DNA of 64,000 bases, taken from the IMG/VR virus record IMGVR_UViG_3300033273_000208, positions 1 through 64,000 of that record; one strand, given 5' to 3'. Source of the DNA: a virus. Below the pieces are notes generated by a model, which was not told where the DNA came from, searched no databases, and was given only the letters and a program-made list of their open reading frames with translations. The translations under genes were made by a program, and so were the position numbers. Below, in pieces: positions 96 to 17,771 of the stretch; the first letter of the stretch is position 1, and each line of letters starts with the position of its first letter.

Positions 96-98
96 TGT

Positions 99-4018: not shown

Positions 4019-4698
4019 ATATTTACTATACATCTGTGATTCCCAAGAGGGACGAAGACTATCAGATCCCTACATTTGCTGAGGACTATGAAGTTCCACC
4101 TACACCAGCATACAATGATGGGATAAAGTCTCATGACCACATGTATTGTCCTGCCCACAAAGAGTGGTGTAAGAATAGATGGACATTTTACATGCCATTT
4201 GATCTACACTTCAGGTGCGACAGTGAGCATCGCATGATAGGATCAGATACACATGGAGATAAACTACAAGATCTGATTTCGATTGGTCCTAACTGGTGGG
4301 ATGATGAACTGCCAGAGATAGAAATCACATACAACACATTGTTTTGGACTAATACAAAGAATGTGTGGTTAGAGTATACTGGTCATCCCACAGTTGCACA
4401 GCATGGATTCAGTGTGGTGCCTGGCACATTTCCTATGTCATCATGGATGAGATCATTGCCTATTGGTGTCATTCCACATCGTATTGATGACGGTATCTAT
4501 ATCAAACGTGGTACACCCATCTTTCATGTTAAGTTTGTGCGAGGTAAAGATACATTCAAACTCACTAGAAAGACACCACCACCTGATAAGATAGTGCAAA
4601 TCAAACAGGATCAAGAACTCAAACACTGGGCACCATTTAAGTCCTGGGATCTAATCATGAAGAGGGAATCTAAATGTCCATTTCGTATCCGTTTCTGA
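4009..4698 (+). CDS. DUF6065-like protein, divergent paralogue
   Basis: 229 aa. Elements shared with the protein at 1639-2361: YCPAHKEWC near residue 45, a YMPFDLHF segment, a VVPGTFP region, and KRGTPIFHVKFV near residue 170. It ends in KCPFRIRF, recalling the KCPF that begins the other protein. Catalytic role unknown. It overlaps the oxygenase upstream by 10 bases and the cupin gene downstream by 25 bases. Paralogy is my inference from motif order and needs an alignment. Confidence 0.65.
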   Translation: MAVDIYYTSVIPKRDEDYQIPTFAEDYEVPPTPAYNDGIKSHDHMYCPAHKEWCKNRWTFYMPFDLHFRCDSEHRMIGSDTHGDKLQDLISIGPNWWDDELPEIEITYNTLFWTNTKNVWLEYTGHPTVAQHGFSVVPGTFPMSSWMRSLPIGVIPHRIDDGIYIKRGTPIFHVKFVRGKDTFKLTRKTPPPDKIVQIKQDQELKHWAPFKSWDLIMKRESKCPFRIRF

Positions 4699-5366
4699 AC
4701 CGTGAGCATTACGTCTGTGGTGACACACCGTTGTTATTCAAGGGTGTATGTGATGCACCTATACTCTATGTGGACTGGGAAGATGTTGAGCACTGCTTAA
4801 ACAATCCCTGGGAGTATAACATTGAGATTCTTGACAGCAATAACATCAAAGTTCCTATGCCCACTGTTCCTCACCCGTGGCATGGTAACTGGCATCCAGA
4901 CAAGAAAGTTATCATGGATCTTGTCAATGATAACCACACATTTGTGATTGCTAAGTATGGTCATCATAATGTTCATGTTAATGCATTGCTGCGTAGGATT
5001 GAGGATGCATTTGATGTAGCATGTGATGCACACATTTATGGTGCATTAGGTGGTGCAAGTTCATTCAAGATTCATTGGGATCAACCAGCAAACTTCATCA
5101 TGCAAATACATGGTGAGACACATTGGACAGTATATAATGAACGGTGTAGTACACTTGTCAAATATACTGGATTCCCCTATAATCCTAGTGAGGATGAAGT
5201 AACACCTGCAATCGATACGGTACTACAACCTGGAGACATGTTGTATATACCATCACGTTGTTATCATTGTGCTTGTCCTGATCAAGAACGACTGTCCCTA
5301 AGTATTCCTTGTTGGCATGATCCTGAGAACAAACCAGACAGAAATCAATACACACTTGATCTCTGA
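4674..5366 (+). CDS. Cupin/JmjC-type Fe(II) oxygenase
   Basis: 230 aa. The metal site of the cupin_4/JmjC fold is visible: FKIHWDQPANFIMQIHG with His134 and Asp136 (HxD), and LQPGDMLYIPSRCYHCA with His198. Members hydroxylate proteins (often histidine or arginine of ribosomal proteins) or small molecules with 2OG. It differs from the jelly-roll TIGR02466 type nearby, so the cluster combines at least two oxygenase architectures. The N-terminal 60 residues have no recognised motif. It overlaps the next frame by about 50 bases. Confidence 0.8.
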   Translation: MSISYPFLNREHYVCGDTPLLFKGVCDAPILYVDWEDVEHCLNNPWEYNIEILDSNNIKVPMPTVPHPWHGNWHPDKKVIMDLVNDNHTFVIAKYGHHNVHVNALLRRIEDAFDVACDAHIYGALGGASSFKIHWDQPANFIMQIHGETHWTVYNERCSTLVKYTGFPYNPSEDEVTPAIDTVLQPGDMLYIPSRCYHCACPDQERLSLSIPCWHDPENKPDRNQYTLDL

Positions 5367-5853
5367 TGTAGCAACAAAAGAGATTGAACGTATAGTTACT
5401 GCTCCTGAGTTTCCCTGGTTTTATATACCTGATGCCACGGATCTTGTGCCTTCTGGTGGTGGTGCATTCATGCATCTATTGAAGATGGACTATGAGGTAC
5501 GATCACCATATTATGATCTATTTCATCTAGAGATCTGTAACTTTGCAAATCTCTATGGATATAGTCATGAGGATATATACCGTGCACGATTGGGTTTATT
5601 GTATCCCACCAAGAAGAAACATAACAAACCACATGTAGACTTCACTGATCCACATGATGTGATGTTGTGGTATATAACCAGTAACGATAAAGCACCCACA
5701 TTATTCTTCAATGACAGACTTGAAGAGATTCATCGTGTAGAATGTAGGCAGGGTCGTGTTGTGCATTTCCCTGGACATATGCTACACGCTTCAACACCAC
5801 CCAAGGATGGTATTCGTGTCGTTCTAAATGTAAATCTGAAGAGGTCAGTATGA
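5317..5853 (+). CDS. 2OG-Fe(II) oxygenase
   Basis: 178 aa with a classical HxD...H...R set: KPHVDFTD (His106, Asp108), GHMLHAS (His157) and GIRVVLNV (Arg167). This is the prolyl-4-hydroxylase-like phage form, not the LFPTPVW type. The ATG at 5317 gives a 50-base overlap with the cupin gene; a TTG at 5356 would shorten this to 11 bases. The stop overlaps the next ATG (ATGA). Confidence 0.8.
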   Translation: MILRTNQTEINTHLISDVATKEIERIVTAPEFPWFYIPDATDLVPSGGGAFMHLLKMDYEVRSPYYDLFHLEICNFANLYGYSHEDIYRARLGLLYPTKKKHNKPHVDFTDPHDVMLWYITSNDKAPTLFFNDRLEEIHRVECRQGRVVHFPGHMLHASTPPKDGIRVVLNVNLKRSV

Positions 5854-6359
5854 TTACACAATGGTTTGATAGATCTAAGGGCGAGTGGCATTCACACCGC
5901 AGATATTTGTATGGTGAGAGTGCAGAACTCATGACCAGTGAACTACTCGTTGGTGACCTGAATGATGTTGAGAAAGCAGTCATTCCAGAAGATCTCAACA
6001 GTGACTATTATGTAAAGTTTGGATGGCAAACTGTTAAATATAGTTCAGGTGAACCTGCTTCATCTGGTGAGATGCTTGTCGGAATCAATAGTAAGGATGG
6101 GAAGATGTATCGCTCTCAAGGATACATGACCTCCAATCCCACCATGACTGATGTAACTATGATTGATGAGGATACTATCCTCTTTGATACGGAGTATGGA
6201 AAACAAAGATTTCGTGAAGAGATTCGACTCCTACACAATGACTCGGTAAGATTACGACAGACGATTGGTTTCAAGGGCAACCGTGTGACTATCGTCGGTC
6301 AATACTACGAAACTCGTAAGGAGAACGAGACCGATGTTCCTCAAGTCAGCACCACTTAG
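5850..6359 (+). CDS. CpcS/CpeS-like phycobiliprotein lyase
   Basis: 169 aa, the length of CpcS/CpeS bilin lyases, which have a lipocalin fold and attach phycobilins to cysteines of phycobiliproteins. Visible family features: an N-terminal WFDRSKGEWHSHRRYLYG (residues 5-22), a YRSQGY strand, the acidic ILFDTEYGKQRFREEI stretch (110-125) matching the TEYE..S..ERFWF region of CpcS, then VRLRQTIG and VGQYYETR. Bilin-related genes are known in cyanophages, and this one suggests a host with phycobilisomes or phycoerythrin. It is embedded in the oxygenase chain. The active-site arginine and tryptophan positions need structural alignment; another lipocalin-like role is possible. Confidence 0.7.
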   Translation: MITQWFDRSKGEWHSHRRYLYGESAELMTSELLVGDLNDVEKAVIPEDLNSDYYVKFGWQTVKYSSGEPASSGEMLVGINSKDGKMYRSQGYMTSNPTMTDVTMIDEDTILFDTEYGKQRFREEIRLLHNDSVRLRQTIGFKGNRVTIVGQYYETRKENETDVPQVSTT

Positions 6360-6501
6360 CAAAGAGGCGAAAGGATTGCTCAAGAGAGCAATGTTATTGT
6401 TACTCTCTGACCTCTATAAGAGGCAGGGAGACATCAGTCCCAGACAACGTGATACAATACATGAGATTGTTACTACATTACATCTTGAACCCGAAGCATG
6501 A
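6334..6501 (+). CDS. Small hypothetical protein
   Basis: 55 aa (MFLKSAPLSKEAKGL...). It overlaps the lyase end by 26 bases and shares ATGA with the next start, which fills an otherwise empty 138-base gap and fits the coupled layout. Predicted helical and basic. Function unknown. Confidence 0.6.
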   Translation: MFLKSAPLSKEAKGLLKRAMLLLLSDLYKRQGDISPRQRDTIHEIVTTLHLEPEA

Positions 6502-7106
6502 CTGTTTTCCCTATATTCTCCACACCTGTTTATGTTGACACCTATGATATTCCACAAGATGAAATAGATCTAATCAAACAGGAAGAATATAAGGATTATC
6601 CAAAGCGTGCAGATGGTATGCAGTCAGTGGATACACAACTCCTCAAGAGGTATCCGCGTCTGCATCACATCTGTCTGGGTCATATTGCCCACTATGCTCA
6701 CAATGTCCTCGCTATTGATGATCGAGTGACATGTGAGATTGTGTGTTCATGGGTCAACAAACACCGTCCTGGTGAGAGAGCAAACAGGCATGGACATACC
6801 AATAGTATGTTCACAGGTTGCCTGTATCTTGACGTGCCCGATGATAGTGGTAACATCATCTTTGAAGCATCATATAATCATGCCACATGGAACACAGGTA
6901 CACTCGAACCAGCAACATGGGAGGATAACATACTCAACTCACGCATCTGGCAGATTGTACCTGAGCGTGGCATGATTGTATGCTTCCCTGCACATGTAGA
7001 CCACTACACAGGATACAATGAGTCTACACAAGATAGATACTCATTAGGATTCAATGTAATGATGAAAGGTGACTTTAGTGCACCTACACGAGATTTGGTG
7101 TTATGA
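6498..7106 (+). CDS. 2OG-Fe(II) oxygenase (TIGR02466-like)
   Basis: 202 aa. It opens with FPIFSTPVYV. The iron site is RHGHTNSMFTGCLYL (His98/His100) with His169 in FPAHVDHYTG, and DRYSLGFNV carries Arg180. It is more closely related to the next gene than to the pair at 2.7-4.0 kb; both have long spacers before the HxH and a CEIVCSW / ARHHCSW strand. Substrate unknown. Confidence 0.85.
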   Translation: MTVFPIFSTPVYVDTYDIPQDEIDLIKQEEYKDYPKRADGMQSVDTQLLKRYPRLHHICLGHIAHYAHNVLAIDDRVTCEIVCSWVNKHRPGERANRHGHTNSMFTGCLYLDVPDDSGNIIFEASYNHATWNTGTLEPATWEDNILNSRIWQIVPERGMIVCFPAHVDHYTGYNESTQDRYSLGFNVMMKGDFSAPTRDLVL

Positions 7107-7735
7107 ACTTAGGTGAATACGATAGATCAGTCTTTCCACTGTTTAACAATCCACTCTATGTGTCTCGCAATGCTCCACTGTCTGCAGAGATAGTGGAATA
7201 TGTTGTTAATCAGGAGTATTATTCTGACCCACAAGAGAAGAATGGTGAGAATACTTCCAACCAAAGACTATTAGATGGATGCCCAGAGTTAAAGGCATTG
7301 GTTGAGAGACATCTGAATCACTATTTGTATAACATACTGTGCTTTGATAGGAAATATGTAGCACGTCATCATTGTTCGTGGGCAACTAGACACAAGACAG
7401 GTCATTCTGCTCACAAACATACACATTGCAACTCAATGTATAGTGGTGTGATATACATAAAAACGCCACCTAAATGTGGGGATATATTGTTTCACGCTGA
7501 TTGCAATCGTGACACATATACAACACCAGCAATGAGACCTGATATTGTTGAGCACAATATCTACAACTCAGCGTGTTGGTCTATACCTGCTGAAGAGGCA
7601 TTGATATTACTGTTTCCATCAACTGTGGAGCATAGTGTTGAACCCAACCGAAGTCTGTCGGATCGGTATAGTGTTGCGTTCAACTATTGGTTGCATGGAC
7701 AGTACGGCGACTGTACCAATAGGTTGACTATATGA
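7103..7735 (+). CDS. 2OG-Fe(II) oxygenase (TIGR02466-like)
   Basis: 210 aa, a tandem relative of the previous gene. FPLFNNPLYV is at residues 11-20, HKHTHCNSMYSGVIYI gives His106/His108, FPSTVEHSV gives His177, and DRYSVAFNYW gives Arg188. ATGA overlaps occur at both ends. The two tandem pairs (2.7-4.0 kb and 6.5-7.7 kb) suggest repeated expansion of the family in this genome. Confidence 0.85.
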   Translation: MNLGEYDRSVFPLFNNPLYVSRNAPLSAEIVEYVVNQEYYSDPQEKNGENTSNQRLLDGCPELKALVERHLNHYLYNILCFDRKYVARHHCSWATRHKTGHSAHKHTHCNSMYSGVIYIKTPPKCGDILFHADCNRDTYTTPAMRPDIVEHNIYNSACWSIPAEEALILLFPSTVEHSVEPNRSLSDRYSVAFNYWLHGQYGDCTNRLTI

Positions 7736-8067
7736 CGACACCTCTGCTAATCTCAGAGTCAGTTCCACTGGAGATCAGGAACATCATGAAGTCATTGGAG
7801 ATTGGATCACCTATCCGATATGATGGAATGGAAGGACATGTGTGCTTCGTTTGTGATTCCTACATTTCTATGTGCTTCCGTGAGTATGAACATGGTGACA
7901 AATCTGCTCGACATCCAACAACCAAGTGTTGTGTACTTATCTTTCAAGAGTTCTGGGATGAGATCGAGATTGACGACACCCACTTCTATAATAAGAAGGC
8001 ATACAATGGACTGATCCATGAACATCCTGGCAACGATATGCTACCCGAAGGAGAGCGCCCCAAATGA
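7732..8067 (+). CDS. Hypothetical protein
   Basis: 111 aa, acidic, with a compact beta-rich core (IGSPIRYDGMEGHVCFVCDSYISMCF). It starts in an ATGA overlap and ends in one with the next gene. It looks like a conserved cyanophage small protein; I do not recognise a function. Confidence 0.75.
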   Translation: MTTPLLISESVPLEIRNIMKSLEIGSPIRYDGMEGHVCFVCDSYISMCFREYEHGDKSARHPTTKCCVLIFQEFWDEIEIDDTHFYNKKAYNGLIHEHPGNDMLPEGERPK

Positions 8068-8213
8068 ATACCAAAAAAGACCCACAAAAATCAACCAACA
8101 ATCTCCCCTCTGTTTATGACATCAAACGCGAAGAAATACAACGTTATTTGGAAGAGACAGAAGAAGAAAGGGCATACTTCGACAGTTACAGCGACGTTCC
8201 TGACGCTAGTTGA
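8064..8213 (+). CDS. Small hypothetical protein
   Basis: 49 aa, strongly charged (VYDIKREEIQRYLEETEEE), one predicted helix. ATG at 8064 overlaps the previous TGA. Its last two thirds overlap the next gene in another frame. The acidic helix looks like a genuine small phage protein, but one of the two overlapping frames may not be expressed. Confidence 0.55.
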   Translation: MNTKKDPQKSTNNLPSVYDIKREEIQRYLEETEEERAYFDSYSDVPDAS

Positions 8214-8292
8214 TGCTATTGAGTGGGAAAAGCACCTCAAGAAGAGTGGCGTGACAGTTTGCGAAGTGCACCCCGTTTTCACCGACTGGTGA
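8116..8292 (+). CDS. Small hypothetical protein, out-of-frame overlap
   Basis: 58 aa. The shape KYNVIWKRQKKKG, then TFLTLVDAIEWEKHLKKSGV, then VEVxPxF-like VCEVHPVF fits a common cyanophage small-protein pattern (a strand, a DAIxWE helix, a closing strand). It overlaps the preceding gene by 98 bases in another frame, and the promoter box at 8251 lies inside it. Function unknown. Confidence 0.55.
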   Translation: MTSNAKKYNVIWKRQKKKGHTSTVTATFLTLVDAIEWEKHLKKSGVTVCEVHPVFTDW

Positions 8293-8308
8293 GGTGTGGT
8301 AGTATATT
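8251..8308 (+). promoter_or_regulatory. Promoter module (GTGACAGT box plus -10)
   Basis: GTGACAGT at 8251 is followed 52 bases later by a -10-like TATATT (8303-8308), and the helicase ATG lies 30 bases after the -10 start. The same box-to-(-10) spacing recurs at 12745, 13981 and 15966, which is why I call it a module. Confidence 0.6.
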
Positions 8309-8332
8309 ATTTCTGTTGAGCGATCCACATAC

Positions 8333-9571
8333 ATGACCGTTGTTCTTCGTCCTCACCAAGATCGTGCCCTTGCAGCAATGCAAGTCAACGATAAAGGTCA
8401 AGTCATTGTTCCTACTGGCGGTGGCAAGACTTTCATTATGATTCAGGATGCACTGCGTCAACTGCAGCAATCTTCCACGATTGTTGTTGTTGCTCCTCGC
8501 ATTCTGCTTGCTACTCAACTGTGTGATGAGTTCATGCAGTTTGTTGACAGCAAGTATGTGCATGTATGTCATGCTCACAGTGGTGAAACTCATTACTTTC
8601 ACTCTACCAAGAGCAGCAAGATTGCTCTCTTCAACAACACCGCTCGTGCTGCAGGTGAGTCCTGCATTATCTTCACCACCTATCATTCGCTGGGTCGTGT
8701 AGTTGATGCAGGCATCAATATCAGTGCAGTGTACTTTGACGAGGCACACAATAGTGTTGCTAAGTCTTTCTTCGCCAGCACCTTTGCCATCTCTGATGTT
8801 GCAGAGCGTTGCTACTTCTTCACTGCTACTCCTCGCATCTCGCACAAGCATGAGCGTGGAATGCACAATCGTGAGGTGTATGGTACTGTTATCGAGAATG
8901 TTTCTGCTTCGGAACTGATTGCTAACGGTAGCATCATTCCCCCTCAGATTGTGCCATTCAACACGGATAACTCTCGCAACAAGGTCAACGCTCACGTTGT
9001 TGACAGTAACACTGTGCAGGATATCATCGACAATCTCGATGAGACTGCTGCTGCTAAAGTGTTGGTTGCAGTGCCATCCAGTCGTGTGCTAGGTAACATG
9101 ATCGGTCAGACTGATCTACTCCAACAACTCAAGGATCGTGGTTACCATGTTCTCCACGTCACCAGCAAGTTCGGTGCCTATGTAGACGACAAGAAAGTCA
9201 ATCGTGAGGTGTTCTTTGACACTCTCACCGCCTGGGGTGCAGATCCCACCAAGAAGTTTGTTATCTTCCACTATTCTATTCTGTCGGAAGGTATCAACGT
9301 TCCTGGTCTCACCCATTGCATTCTTCTGCGTAATCTCAACGTTGTTGAGATGGCACAGACAATCGGTCGTGTTATTCGTCTACATAAAGACGACGCTGCT
9401 GCTATTCGCAGCGGTGAACTCACCCCTGGTAAGTTTGACTTTTATAGGAAACCTTTCGGTTATGTGACTGTCCCTGTGCATCGCACATACGGTAAGCAAG
9501 TGACCAAGCGACTGCAGAATGTAGTTGATGCTATCTTCGTGAAAGGCATTCCTCCTCTGTCCCTCGTCTAA
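8333..9571 (+). CDS. SF2 DEAH-type helicase (UvsW-like)
   Basis: 412 aa with a complete set of superfamily 2 motifs: Walker A PTGGGKT (27-33), DEAH (136-139), TATPR (164-168), motif V-like LSEGINVPG (317-325) and motif VI QTIGRVIRL (342-350). In T4-like phages this type is represented by UvsW, which unwinds branched DNA and R-loops and moves replication from origin to recombination mode. At 412 aa it lacks the extra N-terminal domain of T4 UvsW (about 500 aa), so it may be a second helicase or a restriction-subunit-like translocase. It has its own promoter module and is followed within 6 bases by the lysozyme gene. Confidence 0.85.
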   Translation: MTVVLRPHQDRALAAMQVNDKGQVIVPTGGGKTFIMIQDALRQLQQSSTIVVVAPRILLATQLCDEFMQFVDSKYVHVCHAHSGETHYFHSTKSSKIALFNNTARAAGESCIIFTTYHSLGRVVDAGINISAVYFDEAHNSVAKSFFASTFAISDVAERCYFFTATPRISHKHERGMHNREVYGTVIENVSASELIANGSIIPPQIVPFNTDNSRNKVNAHVVDSNTVQDIIDNLDETAAAKVLVAVPSSRVLGNMIGQTDLLQQLKDRGYHVLHVTSKFGAYVDDKKVNREVFFDTLTAWGADPTKKFVIFHYSILSEGINVPGLTHCILLRNLNVVEMAQTIGRVIRLHKDDAAAIRSGELTPGKFDFYRKPFGYVTVPVHRTYGKQVTKRLQNVVDAIFVKGIPPLSLV

Positions 9572-9576
9572 ATCTA

Positions 9577-10068
9577 ATGCTTTACGATCAACCACCTGCA
9601 CCTGTATATCAGTGCGTTCAGTGTACTCCTGCCGAGCAGAAAACTCTAGCGTTTCTGCAAGATCGGGGTATTGTGAACAAGAATGCTCTCGCTACTGTGA
9701 TGGGTAACATCAAACAGGAGAGCAACTTTAACCCTCTCGTTTGTGAGGGTGGGGCAAACACTGGTTATCAGCGTTGCACTCGTGGAGGATTTGGTCTCAT
9801 TCAGTGGACTACGGAAGCAAGATACCTGGGTCTGGGTCGTTTCTGCAGGAAGAATAGTTGCAACGTCAACTCTCTTGAGGGACAACTGCGGTACATGTGG
9901 AATGAACAACAGTTCCAAACTCTCATTCCTAAGTTAAAGACACCAGGCAAAACCATCCCACAATATATGAATGACTCATGGTATTGGTTAGGGTGGGGTA
10001 TCCATGGCAATCGTACCCACTATGCATATCAATACCATCGAAAGATGGAACTGAAATATGTAATGTGA
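9577..10068 (+). CDS. Phage tail-type lysozyme
   Basis: 163 aa, fitting the phage tail lysozyme domain: NALATVMGNIKQESNFNP with probable catalytic Glu48, and GFGLIQWTTEARY (residues 71-83), the conserved GxxQW element. Such domains cut peptidoglycan from the tail tip, but this one stands alone, with no signal peptide and no tail domain, next to a helicase and far from the virion genes. It could be the endolysin or an injected virion enzyme. Six cysteines are present. A strong terminator follows. Confidence 0.8.
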   Translation: MLYDQPPAPVYQCVQCTPAEQKTLAFLQDRGIVNKNALATVMGNIKQESNFNPLVCEGGANTGYQRCTRGGFGLIQWTTEARYLGLGRFCRKNSCNVNSLEGQLRYMWNEQQFQTLIPKLKTPGKTIPQYMNDSWYWLGWGIHGNRTHYAYQYHRKMELKYVM

Positions 10069-10086
10069 CAATCCAATAACCTTCAC

Positions 10087-10113
10087 ACGGGGCAGCGTTG
10101 CTGCCCCGTTTCT
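10087..10113 (+). terminator. Intrinsic terminator
   Basis: A perfect 10-bp inverted repeat (ACGGGGCAGC with its complement) around a 3-base loop, followed by a short T-rich run. It closes the helicase-lysozyme unit just before the EcoRI-like gene. Confidence 0.85.
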
Positions 10114-10118
10114 GTGTG

Positions 10119-10124
10119 TATAAT
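10119..10124 (+). promoter_or_regulatory. -10 element of the EcoRI-like gene
   Basis: A consensus TATAAT 10 bases after the terminator hairpin, 31 bases before the ATG at 10150. That distance matches the 30-31 bases seen at the other promoter modules. A GTGACA lies 54 bases upstream at 10065, close to the 52-base spacing of the module, but only six bases match. Confidence 0.6.
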
Positions 10125-10149
10125 GAAGAGGTCCAAACGACACAAGACA

Positions 10150-10665
10150 ATGGCAGGCGGCATTCAGAAAGGCATGGTTGCTACTGATGCACATGCACGC
10201 AAACTTGACAACCAATGTAAAGTCCTCAAAGAGGAGATTGCAGACGTTTTGCAATACACTGGTGTGACATTACAGAAAAAACTGAAGAAGAATCAAATCC
10301 CTGGTGGTAAGGGTGCTTGCGAACCTGATGGTGGCGCATGGTTCTACAAAGGCAAACTGATTGCAGTGTTTGAAGGTAAGAAACAGCAGGACGCTGGTAA
10401 TGCTATCGAACGCTGGTTCAAGAACAACTACATCTGCCGCAAGATTAACCCTGATGTGTCATACGTCACCTTTGCAATCGGTGATGGTGCATACTCTGAT
10501 GGTGTGATCGGTAAGGCACTCAACGTTGCACATCTTGATGGGTTTGATACATATAATGCTGGTGGCAACTCTTGCTTCTTTAACACTCAAGGTTTTACAA
10601 AAGAAGAGATCCGTGCTATCATGATTAAAGTCCTTGCAGAGCGTATTCAGAATGAGGATAGTTGA
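10150..10665 (+). CDS. EcoRI-like type II restriction endonuclease
   Basis: 171 aa from ATG 10150. A PD-(D/E)xK nuclease core is visible: EPDGG (Asp60), FEGKKQ (Glu75, Lys77, Gln79), then DAGNAIERWFKN (81-92). In EcoRI (277 aa) the same blocks read PDGG with Asp91, EAKHQ with Glu111, Lys113 and Gln115, and AGNAIER with Asn141, Glu144 and Arg145. GNAxER is the motif by which EcoRI and MunI recognise the central AATT. The phage enzyme is about 100 residues shorter: the insertion between ExK and GNAIER is gone, as is most of the C-terminal part. No methyltransferase gene is visible. It has its own promoter after a terminator. It ends inside the next gene (14-base overlap). The fold is very likely; AATT cutting is a strong inference. 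Confidence 0.85.
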   Translation: MAGGIQKGMVATDAHARKLDNQCKVLKEEIADVLQYTGVTLQKKLKKNQIPGGKGACEPDGGAWFYKGKLIAVFEGKKQQDAGNAIERWFKNNYICRKINPDVSYVTFAIGDGAYSDGVIGKALNVAHLDGFDTYNAGGNSCFFNTQGFTKEEIRAIMIKVLAERIQNEDS

Positions 10666-11221
10666 CAACTACTTTCCACAATGGATGGTGGATAAGAATG
10701 CAGAAGAGTTCCAACTTATACCCGTAACTTATACCAACTCACCCTACGGTCAGTATGAAGTGAGTCGGTTCTTTGGTCAGTTACTTATCGATGAGGAGCG
10801 ATGGATTGCACCTATCGCCCCTCATTGGTTTGTGGACTATTTGCATATGTGTGTATGCAATGATCTCTTGTTGGACTATAAAATCCAAAAACTTGATCGC
10901 TGCCTGCTGAACGTGCAAACACCTGGGCAGAACGCCCAAAGTCACACGGATTGGGATGTTCTAAAGGAAAGCGACAGAATCAGTGGTCTGTATTACATCA
11001 GAGGCGATGGTGACACTCTATTTGTTAATGAACAGGGTGATACTATGAGTGTTGAGTGCAAACCAGGGCGATTAGTGCTGTTTGACAGTACAATATGGCA
11101 TGAGGGTTGTCCTCCTGTGAGTGAACCTATTCGATACACTCTCGGGTATGTCTGGAAGTGTGCCAGTCCACTCTCTGTCCACGATCCCCAGGATTTGTGC
11201 AACCCTGTGCCTATACTATGA
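10652..11221 (+). CDS. 2OG-Fe(II) oxygenase
   Basis: 189 aa from ATG 10652. HxD...H...R set: SHTDWD (His98, Asp100), TIWHEG (His150) and IRYTLGYVW (Arg161), with GRLVLFDS before the distal histidine as in phage prolyl-hydroxylase-like proteins. It overlaps the endonuclease gene by 14 bases and so shares its transcript. Substrate unknown. Confidence 0.82.
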   Translation: MRIVDNYFPQWMVDKNAEEFQLIPVTYTNSPYGQYEVSRFFGQLLIDEERWIAPIAPHWFVDYLHMCVCNDLLLDYKIQKLDRCLLNVQTPGQNAQSHTDWDVLKESDRISGLYYIRGDGDTLFVNEQGDTMSVECKPGRLVLFDSTIWHEGCPPVSEPIRYTLGYVWKCASPLSVHDPQDLCNPVPIL

Positions 11222-11243
11222 GGGTACCAAACAAGGACACCAA

Positions 11244-11426
11244 ATGTACGGAATCCGCCCCGCTCGTTACACCATCGAGGAACTGGTTGCACAGTCCCGC
11301 AATACTATCCGCAACGTGGAAAGTGTCACTCAACCCCAACCGATCGTGTGGTGCTCAACTAACGGTCGCTATGTTGTGAACCCTGAGTTTGCACAGTGGA
11401 AGAACGGTAAGTTCCAAGAAGTGTGA
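11244..11426 (+). CDS. Small hypothetical protein
   Basis: 60 aa from ATG 11244 (MYGIRPARYTIEELVAQ...). It has an N-terminal helix and a C-terminal part VNPEFAQWKNGKF. ACCAAACAAGGACACC precedes the start with only a weak GGA ribosome site. Function unknown. A hairpin follows. Confidence 0.65.
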   Translation: MYGIRPARYTIEELVAQSRNTIRNVESVTQPQPIVWCSTNGRYVVNPEFAQWKNGKFQEV

Positions 11427-11433
11427 TAGAATA

Positions 11434-11467
11434 TGGGGAAATCATTAAGAATGTCCTGATTTCCCCA
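11434..11467 (+). terminator. Terminator-like hairpin
   Basis: GGGGAAATCA pairs perfectly with TGATTTCCCC across a 12-base loop, with one more flanking T-A pair. The T-tract after it is weak (CTTTC), so it may be a leaky terminator or an mRNA end-protecting structure. It separates the endonuclease unit from the small-gene cluster. Confidence 0.6.
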
Positions 11468-11476
11468 CTTTCATGC

Positions 11477-11484
11477 TTAAATAC
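11477..11484 (+). promoter_or_regulatory. Possible T4-type late promoter
   Basis: TTAAATAC resembles the T4 late consensus TATAAATA. It sits right after a hairpin and 22 bases before the ATG at 11506. One or two mismatches make it a weak call. Confidence 0.4.
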
Positions 11485-11505
11485 TATTAACTTCGCAAGA
11501 TAAGC

Positions 11506-11697
11506 ATGGATTGGAGCAGCACCACAAAACAACAGAAACGTAAGGATGCATTTCACATCTTTTACGAAAGTGTGTTGAAACCCGATCATGAACTCCGTCA
11601 GGATGCTCATGAACAACAATGTTATCATGAGTTGTTAGAATGGAGGGGCGAAATCATCGCTTATCTCGATAAGCGTCGCAACGAAGAGTTTAACTAA
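11506..11697 (+). CDS. Small hypothetical protein
   Basis: 63 aa, mostly helical and charged (KQQKRKDAFHIFYESVLKPDHEL, seen in part). First gene after the hairpin at 11434. Its stop overlaps the next start (TAATG). Function unknown. Confidence 0.7.
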   Translation: MDWSSTTKQQKRKDAFHIFYESVLKPDHELRQDAHEQQCYHELLEWRGEIIAYLDKRRNEEFN

Positions 11698-11930
11698 TGA
11701 CCCAACACTTTACATGCACATCCACTGAACCATATGATCGCCATTGGTATAAAGTATGGTGCAAAGATAACACATGTAAAGTGTTTCAATCATATGATGA
11801 AGTCTTGACCGTTTATTGGAACTTTCACCAACACATTTCTCATGTCGAAGTCATTGACCCCAGACCAGAATCCGAAGGAGGATTTGCAACTAACACCCGA
11901 AGACGACGGTCTAAGGGTAAGCGAAAATGA
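11697..11930 (+). CDS. Small hypothetical protein
   Basis: 77 aa. HWYKVWCKDNTCKVFQSYDE, then VYWNFHQHISHVEVID looks like a small alpha/beta fold, with a very basic tail (RRRRSKGKRK) that could bind nucleic acid. The last 89 bases overlap the next gene in another frame. Confidence 0.65.
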   Translation: MTQHFTCTSTEPYDRHWYKVWCKDNTCKVFQSYDEVLTVYWNFHQHISHVEVIDPRPESEGGFATNTRRRRSKGKRK

Positions 11931-12096
11931 AGATGGAACTTTACAAATAGAGTGGGATCCTAATGATGCACGTTGGTCTATGTTCAATGACTTCACTGAG
12001 CAAGACTTCATCGACATGGTTACATCCTATTGCAAGACAGTTCTAGATGAACATGGTGTAGATTATTCTGACATCATTGAGGAAGATGAACTGTGA
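11842..12096 (+). CDS. Small acidic hypothetical protein
   Basis: 84 aa, acidic. EDGTLQIEWDPNDARWSMFN, then a helical IDMVTSYCKTVLDEHG segment. The ATG at 11842 lies within the preceding gene; no later ATG would keep the N-terminal part. The C-terminal half, which is outside the overlap, looks clearly protein-like. The stop overlaps the next start (GTGA). Confidence 0.65.
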   Translation: MSKSLTPDQNPKEDLQLTPEDDGLRVSENEDGTLQIEWDPNDARWSMFNDFTEQDFIDMVTSYCKTVLDEHGVDYSDIIEEDEL

Positions 12097-12263
12097 TCAC
12101 AGCATACATTGCATCTCTCACATTTGCATTAGGTGGAGCACTTGGTTTTAAGGTAGGTGTATTCCTTGGATGGAAATGGGGTGCAGATGATGAACGTTAT
12201 GTTGCATCCAAACTTAGACAACAAGCAGCACACGAGTTAGTTATCAAAGACCCATGGCAATAG
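12093..12263 (+). CDS. Small single-pass membrane protein
   Basis: 56 aa starting with GTG 12093 in a GTGA overlap. Residues 4-30 form one hydrophobic, glycine-rich segment (LTFALGGALGFKVGVFLGW) followed by a charged tail. It overlaps the next gene by 10 bases. Function unknown. Confidence 0.6.
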   Translation: MITAYIASLTFALGGALGFKVGVFLGWKWGADDERYVASKLRQQAAHELVIKDPWQ

Positions 12264-12469
12264 TAGTAAGACAGAAACGTCCAGTTGAACAAACATGGGA
12301 CTTTGATGATATTGACAGTGCTAAAGAGTTCGCTTACAATCAATACCACGAGAAAAGAGAACTGGTCACCGTGGAGATTGATGGTGCTATTGTGTGCCTA
12401 TTCAGTGATCCAGATCCAAATCTATCAAACGCTGACTCACACCTAGACTACAGGAATCAAACACTATGA
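12254..12469 (+). CDS. Small hypothetical protein
   Basis: 71 aa. WDFDDIDSAKEFAYNQYHEKR forms a helix, then VTVEIDGAIVCLF a hairpin, then an acidic tail. ATGA overlap with the next gene. Function unknown. Confidence 0.65.
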   Translation: MAIVVRQKRPVEQTWDFDDIDSAKEFAYNQYHEKRELVTVEIDGAIVCLFSDPDPNLSNADSHLDYRNQTL

Positions 12470-12711
12470 CACCCCGCCGCCTCACAATCCGCCAACTCAA
12501 CATCATTCTAGATTCACTCGCATCGTATCATCTAGAGGTTGAATCCTTTGACAATGATGAACTGGTTTCAGAAGTGTGGGATACGATTGATCTCATCGGT
12601 AACTATCGTGAGTGGATGATGCATCAATCGATCACGGATAACAGTGACATTGATGTACCTTACGATGAGATCACTAAGTTCTTCGAGGTGGGTGAGATTG
12701 GTGCACCATAA
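12466..12711 (+). CDS. Small acidic hypothetical protein
   Basis: 81 aa, all-helical by appearance, beginning MTPRRLTIRQLNIILDSL. Last gene of the run that begins at 11506; the module promoter at 12745 follows. Function unknown. Confidence 0.65.
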   Translation: MTPRRLTIRQLNIILDSLASYHLEVESFDNDELVSEVWDTIDLIGNYREWMMHQSITDNSDIDVPYDEITKFFEVGEIGAP

Positions 12712-12744
12712 TATCTATTTGCCCCATCGACCCTCTATGCCCCC

Positions 12745-12802
12745 GTGACAGTCGGCAAAGCGGTCTACAGGCGCTTGTGGACGCCTCTCAGGCGTGTATT
12801 AT
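12745..12802 (+). promoter_or_regulatory. Promoter module (GTGACAGT box plus -10)
   Basis: GTGACAGTCGG at 12745, continuing CAAAGCGGTCTAC, and TATTAT (12797-12802) exactly 52 bases from the box start. The ATG at 12827 is 30 bases after the -10. A small hairpin (ACGCC/GGCGT) lies just upstream of the -10. The rest of 12712-12826 shows nothing coding. Confidence 0.6.
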
Positions 12803-12826
12803 TAAAGAGTCAAAGGAACGCACCTC

Positions 12827-13099
12827 ATGCAACTTTCCAACTCCGTCTGCATCGTTGACTTCTTCCCCGAGGCATTTATTGCCGAGGCATGTGAAGAAAA
12901 GGGTGTAAAGACTGTCGTCAAGCGTTTTATCAAGCGTGTGACTTTCCCTTCTGATTATGGCAAAGCACAGCAATCTTGGTCTGTTGTTACTGCTCTCACC
13001 TTCTCCAATGAGGTCGCTGAGCGTATTGCTAACGGCGCTGTGGTTACTGGTTTCAACACTGAAAAGTGCCCTGACTCCTATACTCCTTGCTTCTGCTGA
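12827..13099 (+). CDS. Small hypothetical protein
   Basis: 90 aa. An N-terminal strand-helix (SVCIVDFFPEAFIAEACEEKG), then KTVVKRFIKRVTFPSDY, with CPDSYTPCFC at the C-terminus; the cysteine pattern could bind metal. First gene after the promoter module at 12745. Function unknown. Confidence 0.7.
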   Translation: MQLSNSVCIVDFFPEAFIAEACEEKGVKTVVKRFIKRVTFPSDYGKAQQSWSVVTALTFSNEVAERIANGAVVTGFNTEKCPDSYTPCFC

Positions 13100-13101
13100 T
13101 C

Positions 13102-13359
13102 ATGTTCCCCATTTATATCCAGCAACCCCCATCTGTGGGGTTCGCTGTTGATGAGATTCCCGTTGAGATTGTTCAGTATTGTGCTGACTTTACTCAACTC
13201 AATCCCTACGATCAATACAACAAAATGGAGCAAGATCTCCGTTTAGTTGACTGTTACTGGATGCATCTTGGTTATTATGGAACTCCTGCAAACATTATGG
13301 AAGAAGTTCGACGCGAACATTTCCGCACTCGTCCACCTCTACGTCCTGTCTTTGATTGA
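13102..13359 (+). CDS. Small hypothetical protein
   Basis: 85 aa from ATG 13102. Contains VEIVQYCADFTQLNPYDQYN and a helical IMEEVRREHFRT part. Stop and next start overlap (TGATG). Function unknown. Confidence 0.65.
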   Translation: MFPIYIQQPPSVGFAVDEIPVEIVQYCADFTQLNPYDQYNKMEQDLRLVDCYWMHLGYYGTPANIMEEVRREHFRTRPPLRPVFD

Positions 13360-13484
13360 TGCCTGACACTTACACTTTCACTGGTGATGCTGTTACCTTC
13401 CTTGGTTTGGTTGGTGTTACTTCGGCGTTTATCATTGTTGTTACTGCTTTCCGTCGTTTCTTCAACTCTCCTTACAACAAGTGA
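13359..13484 (+). CDS. Tiny single-pass membrane protein
   Basis: 41 aa. Residues 10-30 (AVTFLGLVGVTSAFIIVVTA) are one transmembrane segment, followed by FRRFFNSPYNK, positive-inside style. Overlapping stop/start signals on both sides support translation. It resembles small thylakoid-type membrane peptides in size only; no function assigned. Confidence 0.6.
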   Translation: MPDTYTFTGDAVTFLGLVGVTSAFIIVVTAFRRFFNSPYNK

Positions 13485-13693
13485 GCACTACAGTTTCTAA
13501 AGTCTTCAACGCGATTGATTTCACTGATAGTGAAGCAAACTGCTTGCTTCATTTCTTACAACAAGCACAAGAATGTGGGTATCCTAGTGCTAACGAACCC
13601 TACTACCCCACGATTAACACAATCCTGAACAAATACTACACCGAACTCAACAACCAAGAGCAAAACTGCACGTTTCGTGAGTATGACTACTGA
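13481..13693 (+). CDS. Small hypothetical protein
   Basis: 70 aa starting with GTG in a GTGA overlap. Contains ANCLLHFLQQAQECGYPSA, then PTINTILNKYYTEL; helical. The DNA after it continues into another overlap. Function unknown. Confidence 0.65.
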   Translation: MSTTVSKVFNAIDFTDSEANCLLHFLQQAQECGYPSANEPYYPTINTILNKYYTELNNQEQNCTFREYDY

Positions 13694-13901
13694 ATACACT
13701 AGAGAACAACTTATCGATGCATTATGTGCAGAGTGGGATTATCTCTGCCATGATGATTTCGATCCTGATGTAGATCCCACGACAGAAGAGTATCGTGAAG
13801 ATCTCAACAACTATACTCTCGAACAGTTAATCGCAGAAACGAATACTGACGAGGATGGTTACACTCTCACCGAATACATGGAGAACTATGGATGTAGTTA
13901 A
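13683..13901 (+). CDS. Small acidic hypothetical protein
   Basis: 72 aa from ATG 13683; a GTG two codons earlier is possible. Very acidic (DDFDPDVDPTTEEYREDL), the kind of charge seen in host-takeover peptides or DNA mimics, but that is speculation. Overlaps both neighbours. Confidence 0.65.
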   Translation: MTTEYTREQLIDALCAEWDYLCHDDFDPDVDPTTEEYREDLNNYTLEQLIAETNTDEDGYTLTEYMENYGCS

Positions 13902-13974
13902 TGCTTCACTGATTGCAACTGGTTTGTTGACTCTTGGTGGTCTAATCCTGTTTTTCAAAGTAATCTATCGGTAG
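13888..13974 (+). CDS. 28-aa membrane peptide
   Basis: 28 aa, MDVVNASLIATGLLTLGGLILFFKVIYR in two pieces: a polar start, then one transmembrane helix (residues 7-24) and a basic end. The start overlaps the preceding gene by 14 bases. Such a short frame could be chance, but its composition and the coupled position favour expression. Confidence 0.45.
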   Translation: MDVVNASLIATGLLTLGGLILFFKVIYR

Positions 13975-13980
13975 GGTAGT

Positions 13981-14039
13981 GTGCCAGTTGGTCAAACCGT
14001 CCACCATCGCTTGATTTCCGCACCAATCGGTGCAATACT
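13981..14039 (+). promoter_or_regulatory. Promoter module (GTGCCAGT box plus -10)
   Basis: GTGCCAGTTGG at 13981, continuing TCAAACCGTCCAC, nearly the same as at 15966. The -10 is AATACT at 14034-14039, 30 bases before ATG 14064. A TTGATT lies 17 bases upstream of the -10 and could serve as -35. Confidence 0.6.
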
Positions 14040-14063
14040 ATGAGAGTTAAAGAAAGCAACGCA

Positions 14064-14333
14064 ATGCAACTCCTCCCAAACGCAGTCACGACCGCAACCT
14101 ATCGTCGTGAGACCCGTTTTTTCTTCGATGATGATACCTCTGCGAGCGAGTTCAAGACCATCAAGAAACTGACCTCTTTTCCTGATTCTGGTGATGTCCG
14201 CCGCCGCACTTTGCGTGAGTGGCAGGAAATGAACCCCTCCATCGTTCGTATCACTTTCAAGGACACTCCTGTCCTGGTTGATAACACTCCCGACGAGATT
14301 ACCCGTTTCAAAGTAGCAAACCTCTCCCGATGA
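14064..14333 (+). CDS. Small basic hypothetical protein
   Basis: 89 aa from ATG 14064, chosen because the longer frame from 14040 would begin at the transcription start. Contains ATYRRETRFFFDDD, then KTIKKLTSFPDSGDVRRRT and MNPSIVRITFKDTPV. Function unknown. ATGA overlap with the next gene. Confidence 0.7.
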   Translation: MQLLPNAVTTATYRRETRFFFDDDTSASEFKTIKKLTSFPDSGDVRRRTLREWQEMNPSIVRITFKDTPVLVDNTPDEITRFKVANLSR

Positions 14334-14470
14334 TTACACAACAAGACCGTGAGTTTGTTGACTTTTTGTTTAGCAAACTCACGAAGCATGTTGACACCGA
14401 CATGATAGATTTGCAGGATGATGATACCTGCTGTGACCATCTTAACTTTCAACAACTCGAACTCTTCTGA
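14330..14470 (+). CDS. Small acidic hypothetical protein
   Basis: 46 aa, MITQQDREFVDFLFSKLTKH..., acidic and helical, ending in a CCDH region. Starts in an ATGA overlap. Function unknown. Confidence 0.6.
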   Translation: MITQQDREFVDFLFSKLTKHVDTDMIDLQDDDTCCDHLNFQQLELF

Positions 14471-14491
14471 ACACTCTTAACTAACACTCTC

Positions 14492-14752
14492 ATGCTTAAG
14501 AAAGTCTCCGAGTCTAAACAAACACCTTCACCAGTTATTGTCAACAAAGGAAAGCATGGATACAACTGCTGGGTGTATGTAAGCACGATTCAGAAGAATC
14601 AAAACACTTACCATAAGTATAAAGTTGCCAACAAGTTTGGCAAGAAGTTTGTATCTAAAAAGGATGCACTTATGTACGGTTGGGCAACAATCAACGGACA
14701 CGATGTTTCAACCTATGATGTACCAATGCGACACAAACCAGTCGCTCGCTGA
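14492..14752 (+). CDS. Small basic hypothetical protein
   Basis: 86 aa, lysine-rich. Central NCWVYVSTIQKNQNTYHKYKV, then KKFVSKKDALMYGWATINGH resembles short DNA-binding alpha/beta domains of integrases (AP2-like or SAM-like arm-binding), but I cannot confirm this. Function unknown. Confidence 0.65.
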   Translation: MLKKVSESKQTPSPVIVNKGKHGYNCWVYVSTIQKNQNTYHKYKVANKFGKKFVSKKDALMYGWATINGHDVSTYDVPMRHKPVAR

Positions 14753-14756
14753 CGGT

Positions 14757-14829
14757 GTGACAGTTCCTCAGGTGGTTTCTCGGTTTTGTATCACCACGAA
14801 CTACCTGGGTCTGGCATCTCGTGTATCTT
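14757..14829 (+). promoter_or_regulatory. Variant promoter module
   Basis: GTGACAGT at 14757 and TATCTT at 14824-14829, the same -10 as at 16018. Here the spacing is 67 bases, 15 longer than in the other copies, and the middle of the box differs. Weaker than the other four. Confidence 0.4.
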
Positions 14830-14856
14830 AGAAACATGGAAAACAACCAAACCGAC

Positions 14857-15084
14857 ATGACCATCACTCCCGCATTCATCGATGCTCTCGATAGCGTGCA
14901 GGCGTTCTGTCTTGACATGAACCCCGACATCGATATGGCATACGATTACGTCTGCGAGCAGGCAGGAATCGACTCCTTTGTTTGCAACAATGCTGCATGG
15001 GATATGTTCTACGATGTGTGGGAAAAGATCATGGATGACAACAATGTCCCTGATCATGTTCGTGCTGGTGACTATCGCTACTGA
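14857..15084 (+). CDS. Small acidic hypothetical protein
   Basis: 75 aa from ATG 14857 (MTITPAFIDALDSVQAF...). An ATG at 14836 would add 7 residues but lies about where transcription should begin; the 33-base distance from the -10 fits the 30-31 bases at other modules. Acidic, with three aromatic-rich helices (AAWDMFYDVWEKIMDD). Function unknown. Confidence 0.65.
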   Translation: MTITPAFIDALDSVQAFCLDMNPDIDMAYDYVCEQAGIDSFVCNNAAWDMFYDVWEKIMDDNNVPDHVRAGDYRY

Positions 15085-15121
15085 TTCACGACTTTCTCAC
15101 ACTAACCCCACTCAAATCATC

Positions 15122-15319
15122 ATGAATCGTTACTGCATCGAAGTTGACCGCATTGAACGTGATGGCAGCATTTTCCACCTCGTTCAATATAGGGAACTGA
15201 AACCCACTAAATCACTCTGGGCACACAAACTGCAGTTGGAAAAACTCACTAATCGCATTGCTGAGGAACTCAAATACTATCAAGTTCCTTACAAACGCTA
15301 TAGCGTGAGCATGGCGTAA
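15122..15319 (+). CDS. Small hypothetical protein
   Basis: 65 aa from ATG 15122; the longer frame upstream is read-through of another gene. An N-terminal beta hairpin (RYCIEVDRIERDGSIFHLVQY), then a long basic helix. Stop/start overlap TAATG with the next gene. Function unknown. Confidence 0.65.
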   Translation: MNRYCIEVDRIERDGSIFHLVQYRELKPTKSLWAHKLQLEKLTNRIAEELKYYQVPYKRYSVSMA

Positions 15320-15537
15320 TGCCTCCCAAATACGACGCAAACTGGTTCACTAACTACAACAAAACAATGGCAACTTACAACCCCTACGTTGATACCCTCG
15401 TCGAGATGGGTTACGATCGCACTGACTGCCAGATGGCAGGTCGTGATGCTACCTATCCTCGTACGATTCACGGTCGTGTTTTTAACACCAAAGAAGAGTA
15501 CGATGAGGCACTCGCTGACTTTATCAACGGTCTCTGA
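15319..15537 (+). CDS. Small hypothetical protein
   Basis: 72 aa. Contains NPYVDTLVEMGYDRTDCQMAG, resembling a small UBA-like helical unit, then VFNTKEEYDEALADFINGL. Function unknown. Confidence 0.65.
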   Translation: MPPKYDANWFTNYNKTMATYNPYVDTLVEMGYDRTDCQMAGRDATYPRTIHGRVFNTKEEYDEALADFINGL

Positions 15538-15545
15538 TTAACATC

Positions 15546-15707
15546 ATGCGAATCATTCTTGCTTCAGTAGTTGTAATCTTTGGCAGCATGATTGGTCTTG
15601 CTGCTATCAACTCAGTCTCTCAAATGCAGGACGCTAAGATGACACGATTCTGCAAACAAATCCCCGTAGGCGCATCCTACGATGAAATGTGCGCTAAGTA
15701 TCGTTAA
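15546..15707 (+). CDS. Small secreted or membrane-anchored protein
   Basis: 53 aa. MRIILASVVVIFGSMIGLAA is a signal peptide or membrane anchor. The short outer part has two cysteines (FCKQIP, MCAKYR) that could form a disulfide, as expected for a periplasmic peptide. It might act on lysis or superinfection, but the sequence does not show which. Confidence 0.6.
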   Translation: MRIILASVVVIFGSMIGLAAINSVSQMQDAKMTRFCKQIPVGASYDEMCAKYR

Positions 15708-15747
15708 TCACGCGCAACACTAACTAACAACAATCACACACACAATC

Positions 15748-15969
15748 ATGGACCGCTCTGAAATCCAACGCCAATATGTTGACTGCATCGTTGATGGCAT
15801 GGACCTTGACGATTGCTTGGCACTGTTAAAAGATTGCCTCAATGCTGACCTGGAAGTGTATAGTGACAAGGAACTGATTGAAGAGGTTAATCAATACTAT
15901 CCTCACCTGATTGAAGAGGATAGTGAAGAGAATAGTGAGGAACCAAGCGAAGCGACGGGTTGGCAGTGA
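15748..15969 (+). CDS. Small acidic hypothetical protein
   Basis: 73 aa, helical and very acidic at the C-terminus (IEEDSEENSEEPSEATGWQ). The promoter box at 15966 begins in its stop codon region. Function unknown. Confidence 0.65.
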   Translation: MDRSEIQRQYVDCIVDGMDLDDCLALLKDCLNADLEVYSDKELIEEVNQYYPHLIEEDSEENSEEPSEATGWQ

Positions 15970-16023
15970 CAGTTGGACAAACCGTCCACTATCACCGCAC
16001 AGACCCCTAAGATCGTGTATCTT
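15966..16023 (+). promoter_or_regulatory. Promoter module (GTGACAGT box plus -10)
   Basis: GTGACAGTTGG at 15966, continuing ACAAACCGTCCAC, and TATCTT at 16018-16023, 52 bases from the box start. The next ATG is 123 bases after the -10, so this transcript would have a leader of about 110 bases; in 16024-16140 I see no gene and no clear hairpin. Confidence 0.6.
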
Positions 16024-16140
16024 AGAGAAGTGGAGGGGAACAGGACACCCGATCATCACTCCTAGCGAGTCAGTTGGCAACTCTACTGCTGATGATAAAC
16101 TCCACTTTTTCCTAACACTTTTCACCTCTCTTTTCTCATC

Positions 16141-16473
16141 ATGCGTAAAATCGAGCAGGCAATGAACACCGCCATCGCTAACAACGACAACTGGCAATCT
16201 GGCAATACTTCTGTTCACTTTAACGAGGAAGAAAACCTCTCCGTTGTGCGTCTGCACGGCAACAAGATTGCCGAGATCGGTGAGGGTTTCATCCGCCTCT
16301 TTGACGGCGGTTGGCAATCCAACACCACCAAATCTCGTCTGAATGCTATTCTCTCTGAGCACGGAGAATGTGGTGATAAAGTATTCGCAAAGGACTTCGA
16401 TTGGTTCCTGCAAATGAATACTGCCCAAGGTCTTTCTGTTGTTCCTTTCTTCTCTTCGATGCGCCTGGGTTGA
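16141..16473 (+). CDS. Conserved hypothetical protein
   Basis: 110 aa. The pattern MRKIEQAMNTAI, NTSVHFNEEENLSVVRLHGNKIA, LFDGGWQSNTTKSRLNAIL is one I associate with small conserved proteins found across phages and plasmids; no biochemical function known to me. Stop/start overlap TGATG with the next gene. Confidence 0.75.
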   Translation: MRKIEQAMNTAIANNDNWQSGNTSVHFNEEENLSVVRLHGNKIAEIGEGFIRLFDGGWQSNTTKSRLNAILSEHGECGDKVFAKDFDWFLQMNTAQGLSVVPFFSSMRLG

Positions 16474-16658
16474 TGTTGAAAGCACTCAACAAATCTCGTT
16501 CCGCTAACTACTATGCGAATCAAGTGAAAGTATTGCTTTTGATTGTAATCGGCGTCCTTATCTATCACTCACAGGACGCCCGATTCTTTATCTCTGACCG
16601 CCTTCAGGATGCATCAGAGTTTATTCGTCCCGAACCCAATCTTCAGTTTCGTTATTGA
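16473..16658 (+). CDS. Small membrane protein
   Basis: 61 aa from ATG 16473. Residues 18-33 (VKVLLLIVIGVLIYHS) form one transmembrane helix after a basic N-terminus, with a charged outer part. Function unknown. Confidence 0.6.
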   Translation: MLKALNKSRSANYYANQVKVLLLIVIGVLIYHSQDARFFISDRLQDASEFIRPEPNLQFRY

Positions 16659-16660
16659 TC

Positions 16661-17074: not shown

Positions 17075-17077
17075 TTC

Positions 17078-17722: not shown

Positions 17723-17730
17723 GAGACGCG

Positions 17731-17771
17731 CAGTTTTCCACAACTTTTTCCACATATCCTGTGGAAAACTG
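17731..17771 (+). repeat. DnaA-box-like cluster in an inverted repeat
   Basis: A perfect 12-bp inverted repeat (CAGTTTTCCACA and complement, 17731-17742 and 17760-17771) with a 17-base loop that contains a third copy. In all, TTTTCCACA occurs at 17734-17742 and 17746-17754, its complement at 17760-17768, and another copy at 18079-18087 inside the next gene. TTTTCCACA is close to the DnaA box described for cyanobacteria. It may be an origin or DnaA-titration site, or the hairpin may end the transcript from 17078. Confidence 0.6.

Follow-up and report, generated by a model that had tools for sequence, protein, structure and literature searches.

Gene content of the nuclease locus

The window, meaning the whole stretch of DNA analysed here, comprises positions 1 to 64,000 of IMG/VR record IMGVR_UViG_3300033273_000208 (full record 73,883 b) and derives from a virus of marine cyanobacteria that belongs to the T4-like cyanophage lineage. 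The following features are referred to below:

5850-6359: CpeS-like gene (PF09367)
8333..9571, plus strand: ResIII/DEAD helicase, upstream of the nuclease (Pfam match)
9577..10068, plus strand: phage tail lysozyme, immediate upstream neighbour of the nuclease (PF18013, 6e-15)
10150..10665, plus strand: EcoRI-type PD-(D/E)XK nuclease of phrog_2400, 171 aa (phrog_2400 match, EcoRI alignment, dN/dS)
10324..10335, plus strand: PDGG, nuclease residues 59-62, aligned with P90-D91-G92-G93 of EcoRI and containing the catalytic Asp (sequence, hhalign)
10372..10386, plus strand: E75-G-K77-K-Q79, aligned with the catalytic E111-A-K113-H-Q115 of EcoRI (sequence, hhalign)
10396..10413, plus strand: GNAIER, nuclease residues 83-88, aligned with the AATT-reading segment G140-N141-A142-I-E-R145 of EcoRI (sequence, hhalign)
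10652..11221, plus strand: 2OG-Fe(II) oxygenase, overlapping the nuclease stop (PF13640, 2.6e-7)
1..64000, no strand: AATT void spanning the whole window (0 versus 299 +/- 14.5) and continuing through the remainder of the 73,883-b record

A helicase also adjoins the nuclease-methyltransferase block of the cyanophage S-RIM2. The 2OG-Fe(II) oxygenase gene that follows the nuclease occupies the slot where most relatives have a D12 methyltransferase. Elsewhere in the window, the CpeS-like gene lies near a halogenase-like flavoprotein (99-1652), in a cluster that also holds several 2OG-oxygenase-like genes (2740-7735), both recognized by eye. A single open frame of 7523 aa (26665-49236) probably encodes a giant structural protein of the tail or fibre.

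A divergent phage homologue of EcoRI

Translation of 10150-10665 confirms the observation of the preliminary description that PDGG, an ExK followed by Gln, and GNAIER occur within a 171-aa protein in the same order as in EcoRI. The protein belongs to phrog_2400 (E 4.5e-80), a family annotated as of "unknown function". Two phrog_2400 proteins of known cyanophages, S-CREM2 gp11 and S-RIM2 SWTG_00030, are 61-72% identical to the window nuclease, and the former is annotated as restriction endonuclease EcoRI. Homologues are present in 65 Synechococcus phage records, and an alignment scan of IMG/VR identified 84 stretches that carry them, of which the best 80 were used. Among 54 diverse relatives, 15 positions are invariant, including P59, D60, E75, K77, Q79, G83, N84, A85, E87 and R88. 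This invariant set covers both the catalytic residues of EcoRI and its AATT-reading segment.

The proposed relationship to EcoRI is well supported by profile searches and their controls. A profile of the 54 phage relatives, run against 177,635 PDB sequences with hmmsearch, matched EcoRI as the only family (E 1.1e-5), and hhalign of the family profile against EcoRI gave a probability of 95.4 (E 1.8e-8, score 61.3). The EcoRI query sequence matches the PDB EcoRI chains over their full length, with one residue differing in 2OXV. The score of 61.3 compares with at most 26.2 for 200 shuffled EcoRI sequences, and masking all three motifs in EcoRI left a score of 30.7. Chance resemblance is ruled out by the shuffled, reversed and motif-masked controls. 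A cyanobacterial PF02963 protein also aligns with the nuclease family (E 7e-9).

Searched against Pfam on its own, the window protein matched no family and lies outside PF02963 at the curated cut-off; it is therefore named here a divergent EcoRI homologue and not a PF02963 member. PF02963 is nonetheless the Pfam family that most of its relatives match, weakly, with E values of 0.03-0.04 for the best of them. By its shared core, with aligned PDGG, ExKxQ and GNAIER, the protein falls within the EcoRI family. PADLOC REase_II matches 8 of the 54 relatives (best 2.4e-4).

Structure prediction, proposed earlier as a check, upheld the fold and was silent on the closest experimental structure. An AlphaFold model (pLDDT 89.6) shows the alpha-beta-beta-beta-alpha-beta order of the PD-(D/E)XK core, and the BFVD matches of Foldseek include a protein annotated as a restriction endonuclease (2.2e-3) and a viral PD-(D/E)XK nuclease (E 1.5e-3, prob 0.99). 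Foldseek against the PDB gave nothing significant, with EcoRI absent among the matches listed, so that assignment to the PD-(D/E)XK superfamily, to which the core fold and the PD...ExK active site both lead, is supported mainly by sequence.

EcoRI, a bacterial enzyme accompanied by a methylase of its own, recognises GAATTC, which contains AATT. R.EcoRI (PF02963; PDB 1ERI, 1CKQ, 2OXV) has PDGG, ExKxQ and GNAIER in common with the phage nuclease, in the same order, but spans 277 aa against 171. The phage protein is shorter in the C-terminal region and in the insert of roughly 20 aa that separates ExK from GNAIER. Between the window record and its sister record G001, the nuclease has a dN/dS of 0.092 (L001 locus), and the gene is kept under purifying selection in the window lineage.

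Absence of AATT and the probable target

AATT is absent from the window, where dinucleotide-preserving shuffles contain 299 +/- 14.5 copies, and from the full 73,883-b record, where about 330 are expected. Observed over expected counts in the three records of the window lineage are 0/330 (window record), 0/508 (G001) and 0/399 (G002). The preliminary description had singled out AATT as the word missing from this genome. The absence holds, but AATT is not the sole absent word, as CCGG is also at 0 against about 120 expected in the window record, in which the RGCY words AGCT, GGCC and GGCT are strongly depleted. AGTACT, TTCGAA, GACGTC, GTCGAC and GCATGC are likewise absent from this record.

CCGG is at 0 in related non-carriers of the nuclease too, and most related nuclease-less cyanophage loci share the CCGG and RGCY gaps. 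Because gene-less cyanophages share it, the CCGG gap is unrelated to the nuclease and reflects another pressure; avoidance of CCGG and RGCY as part of the same system was rejected on this ground. A general AT or compositional bias was rejected as well, other AT-rich words being near expectation, as is AATT itself in non-carriers.

Depletion of AATT follows the nuclease gene. The comparison covered 42 carrier and 50 non-carrier cyanophage sequences, the carriers not being phylogenetically independent of one another; the non-carriers were found via a baseplate gene, and the nuclease had no match in those non-carrier records in which it was sought. AATT separates the two groups best of all 4-mers (AUC 0.004), with a median log2 O/E of -2.16 in carriers versus -0.04 in non-carriers. 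Depletion recurs among carriers that are 35-95% identical in the nuclease, and the nearest non-carrier, G024 (baseplate protein 77% identical), contains 577 copies against 602 expected over 78 kb. S-PM2, for which the phage records gave no homologue, has AATT at the expected level as well. All ten NAATTN classes are reduced to a similar degree in carriers, and the residual AATT sites show no strong flank bias, their flanks resembling those of non-carriers. A longer site (GAATTC, CAATTG or RAATTY) is not supported, given this resemblance. The word comparison and the unbiased flanks thus point to bare AATT as the probable target, and the earlier suggestion of plain AATT is well supported. EcoRI, in contrast, needs the outer G and C, whereas the phage nuclease family tracks bare AATT.

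The extent of depletion varies among carriers. S-CREM2 and S-RIM2 retain AATT at 68/227 and 60/311, and two loci with a nuclease and no methylase nearby (L165 and L167) are only mildly depleted (O/E 0.70-0.80). Beside or near the nuclease at L165:2381-3274 lies a gene for a DUF6267 protein, which bears a KIDGAPAIVWG motif and by eye resembles a ligase/nucleotidyltransferase. A DUF6267 protein also occurs near the nuclease in L167, L172, L178 and L180, which are carriers without an adjacent methyltransferase. In the reverse direction, predicting the nuclease from low AATT, one independent lineage (three records) was examined and no homologue was found in it. In G379 (L460-L465), a cyanophage record of 116.7 kb without a detected nuclease, AATT is scarce over the initial 65 kb and at a normal level thereafter. 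The record may be a recombination mosaic with carrier and non-carrier ancestry, may preserve a fossil trace of earlier contact with the nuclease, or may have been assembled chimerically.

The partner methyltransferase and its absence from the part of the window lineage seen

At 63 of 76 testable loci, the nuclease is either fused to a D12 N6-adenine methyltransferase (PF02086) or has one no more than 3 kb downstream, and in 47 of these 63 the methyltransferase frame starts no more than 60 bases from the nuclease end. At one further locus, L193, it lies just upstream. S-CREM2 and S-RIM2 each encode a D12 adenine methyltransferase 1-2 kb from the nuclease, and in G071 the orthologue of the partner (55% identical) lies roughly 18 kb away, not adjoining. 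Distances among the nucleases correlate with those among the methyltransferases (0.74, a value that none of 2000 permutations reached), and loci found through the methyltransferase are also AATT-depleted. Judged by this gene pairing, the nuclease family is predicted to supply the restriction (R) half of an AATT restriction-modification pair carried by phages.

In one case (L035:1887-3296), nuclease and D12 methyltransferase form a single 470-aa open reading frame, a candidate natural single-chain restriction-modification enzyme. L504 carries a partner-type methyltransferase and AATT at 1/122, with no homologous nuclease in view. An unrelated frame with an FVEIKNNG motif (L504:5634-6509) lies directly upstream of that methyltransferase and possibly encodes a non-homologous AATT nuclease.

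AATT contains no cytosine, and only adenine methylation could therefore protect it. Searches with PF02086, PF01555, PF13651, PF05869 and PF02384 gave no match in the window record, G001 or G002, and there was likewise no match to SWTG_00032, the partner methyltransferase of S-RIM2. Of the lineage's genome, about 117 kb is covered by the window record plus G001. The full genome is assumed to measure 170-190 kb (S-RIM2 175 kb, S-PM2 196 kb), which leaves about a third unseen; overlapping contigs that would complete the lineage's genome were looked for and none were found. Over the about 117 kb seen in the window record and G001, and in G002, the cognate methyltransferase that a Type II restriction-modification system requires is missing. 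The methyltransferase search proposed in the preliminary description has thus come out negative over about two thirds of the assumed genome, and the unseen part presumably lacks a methylase as well. The earlier picture of a phage without a methylase stands for the sequence covered, in which none is recognisable, but the condition has to be read as a derived loss, since 63 of 76 relatives carry the D12 partner. As most relatives have this methylase adjacent or fused, its absence here is a derived state in which the M half was lost.

Maintenance of the purge

The window record and G001 are about 14% divergent over 65 kb aligned. They differ by one base within AATT context at 176 positions, and in none of these is AATT present on either side. 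By the same measure, most other words tested gave 32-67%, AGCT 11% and CCGG 0%. The AATT purge is maintained in the window lineage. Self-protection by sequence purge, as first proposed from the window alone, is well supported by the retention of AATT in non-carriers and by the fact that none has arisen between the sisters.

A strong purge also occurs in relatives that possess the methylase, such as G011 (42/468) and G010 (26/227). The purge is accordingly no proof of methylase loss, because it is near-complete in G011 with a methylase present. These strongly purged, methylase-positive relatives suggest an order of events in which the purge came first and may have made the methylase dispensable. 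In the window lineage, all AATT appears to have been removed instead of being protected chemically, as relatives seem to do. This might take the place of the modified-base strategy of T4, as the preliminary description supposed.

Proposed function and alternative explanations

We favour, at a probability of roughly 0.7, an orphaned but active AATT nuclease of the EcoRI family, whose D12 methyltransferase was lost, whose own genome is protected by site purge and which is aimed at host or rival DNA. Sequence comparison speaks for homology, intact catalytic residues, purifying selection, restriction-modification pairing, AATT depletion that tracks the gene and the void in the window lineage; cleavage of AATT by the nuclease, and its use against host or rivals, are presumed. 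The fuller version of this reading, a lytic phage with an active 4-base enzyme, no methylase anywhere in its genome and the purge as its only protection, shredding the DNA of the host and of AT-rich rivals, has slightly better than even odds.

By analogy with EcoRI, the nuclease would act as a dimer and cleave host and foreign DNA at AATT. The phage genome would be immune, having lost the methyltransferase and every AATT, and so offering no sites. During infection, cuts would fall on the host chromosome and, far more densely, on the genomes of co-infecting cyanophages. Per 100 kb, samples of likely host DNA contain 25-151 copies of AATT and the nearest non-carrier phage 738, that is, about once per 0.7-4 kb in the host samples taken and about once per 135 bp in the phage. 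Rival phages are favoured as the main victims because of this higher density, but the more than a thousand cuts predicted for a host chromosome would also be lethal. The hosts may resemble Synechococcus WH 5701 or Cyanobium, as suggested by psbA at the end of G001, which is 96% identical to proteins of both.

The alternative that survives best, doubtful as it is, holds that the window phage has an ordinary restriction-modification pair whose methyltransferase lies unlinked in the unseen genome, the void being the extreme of the depletion found in methylase-positive phages. G071, where the partner orthologue does not lie beside the nuclease, offers a precedent for such an arrangement, and near-complete purge coexists with a methylase in G010, G011 and L504; about a third of the genome, at the size assumed, is unseen. 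Yet no methylase occurs in about 117 kb of the window lineage, as compared with its location within 3 kb in 63 of 76 carriers, and none of the loci found through the partner methyltransferase is free of AATT, the lowest count being 1/122 in L504, a different phage. Moreover, with exactly zero AATT in about 117 kb, a methylase would have no site to protect. The orphaned nuclease remains the preferred reading.

The purge could also be an answer to an AATT restriction system of the host, with the phage nuclease incidental. Phages commonly avoid host restriction sites (PMC6286503), the avoidance of CCGG and RGCY words in the window phage and its gene-less relatives fits such a pressure, and an EcoRI-type restriction-modification pair exists in one cyanobacterium of the host family. 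This explanation is nevertheless highly improbable, given that gene-less cyanophages, the closest lineage included, do not avoid AATT and that carriers whose nucleases are 35-95% identical share the depletion. Equally improbable is the view that the nuclease has ceased to cut AATT, whether through decay or through a new role in regulation, homing or repair: bacterial solitary restriction endonuclease genes can be inactive (PMC3488263) and activity is a prediction for every family member, but the catalytic and recognition residues are invariant, dN/dS is 0.09, and no AATT arose while the sister lineages diverged by about 14%.

Comparison with known restriction systems

EcoRI-type enzymes, virus-borne restriction-modification and a solitary enzyme with a site-free host are each known separately. 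MluCI and Tsp509I are bacterial AATT endonucleases. They resemble the phage enzyme in the AATT target, which is predicted for the latter, and in belonging to the same broad group, the likeness being drawn from their description. They are part of bacterial restriction-modification systems, whereas the window nuclease is phage-borne and orphaned. MluCI has been placed in one group with EcoRI and MunI, as a possible case of mosaicism (PMC4081073).

The chlorovirus enzymes CviAII and CviJI are virus-encoded restriction endonucleases with short sites and an adjacent methyltransferase (PMC7019647). The restriction enzymes of chloroviruses are considered to break down host DNA but were found not to account for mutual exclusion (PMC7019647). 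Packaging of the nuclease is also reported for chloroviruses. These are viruses of eukaryotic algae whose DNA is protected by methylation (PMC7019647), in contrast to the site purge of the window phage. PacI is a solitary enzyme without a cognate methylase, and the genome of its host is reported to lack its sites (PMC3488263). It is bacterial, however, and few sites are expected by chance because the PacI site is 8 bp long, whereas hundreds of 4-bp sites are missing from the window phage. If the present reading is correct, immunity by purge of a 4-base word is an extreme form of the solitary-enzyme case represented by PacI.

S-CREM2 and S-RIM2 keep the D12 methyltransferase and some AATT, and the window lineage has neither in the sequence seen. 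The S-CREM2 paper discusses the methylase and leaves the nuclease, and the link between the two, undiscussed (PMC10665884). In the literature, of which part was covered, no description was found of a phage EcoRI-type AATT system or of a genome that protects itself by eliminating a 4-base word completely. If confirmed, the reading would connect phrog_2400, so far without an assigned function, with a restriction system of EcoRI type in many cyanophages and would explain a strong compositional anomaly of the carrier genomes. The cyanophages would then provide a natural experiment: those with nuclease and methylase keep some AATT, the window lineage has none, and those without the nuclease keep the expected level. 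The nuclease is a candidate weapon for competition between phages in the ocean.

A close cellular relative of the nuclease was sought among cellular genome contigs, without a match. Among 300 genomes of the presumed host family there were two weak matches, one of which is a genuine pair of PF02963 and D12 restriction-modification genes. At L297:1450-3236, from the presumed host family, a PF02963 gene overlaps a D12 methyltransferase gene, and the two form a cellular restriction-modification pair related to the phage family.
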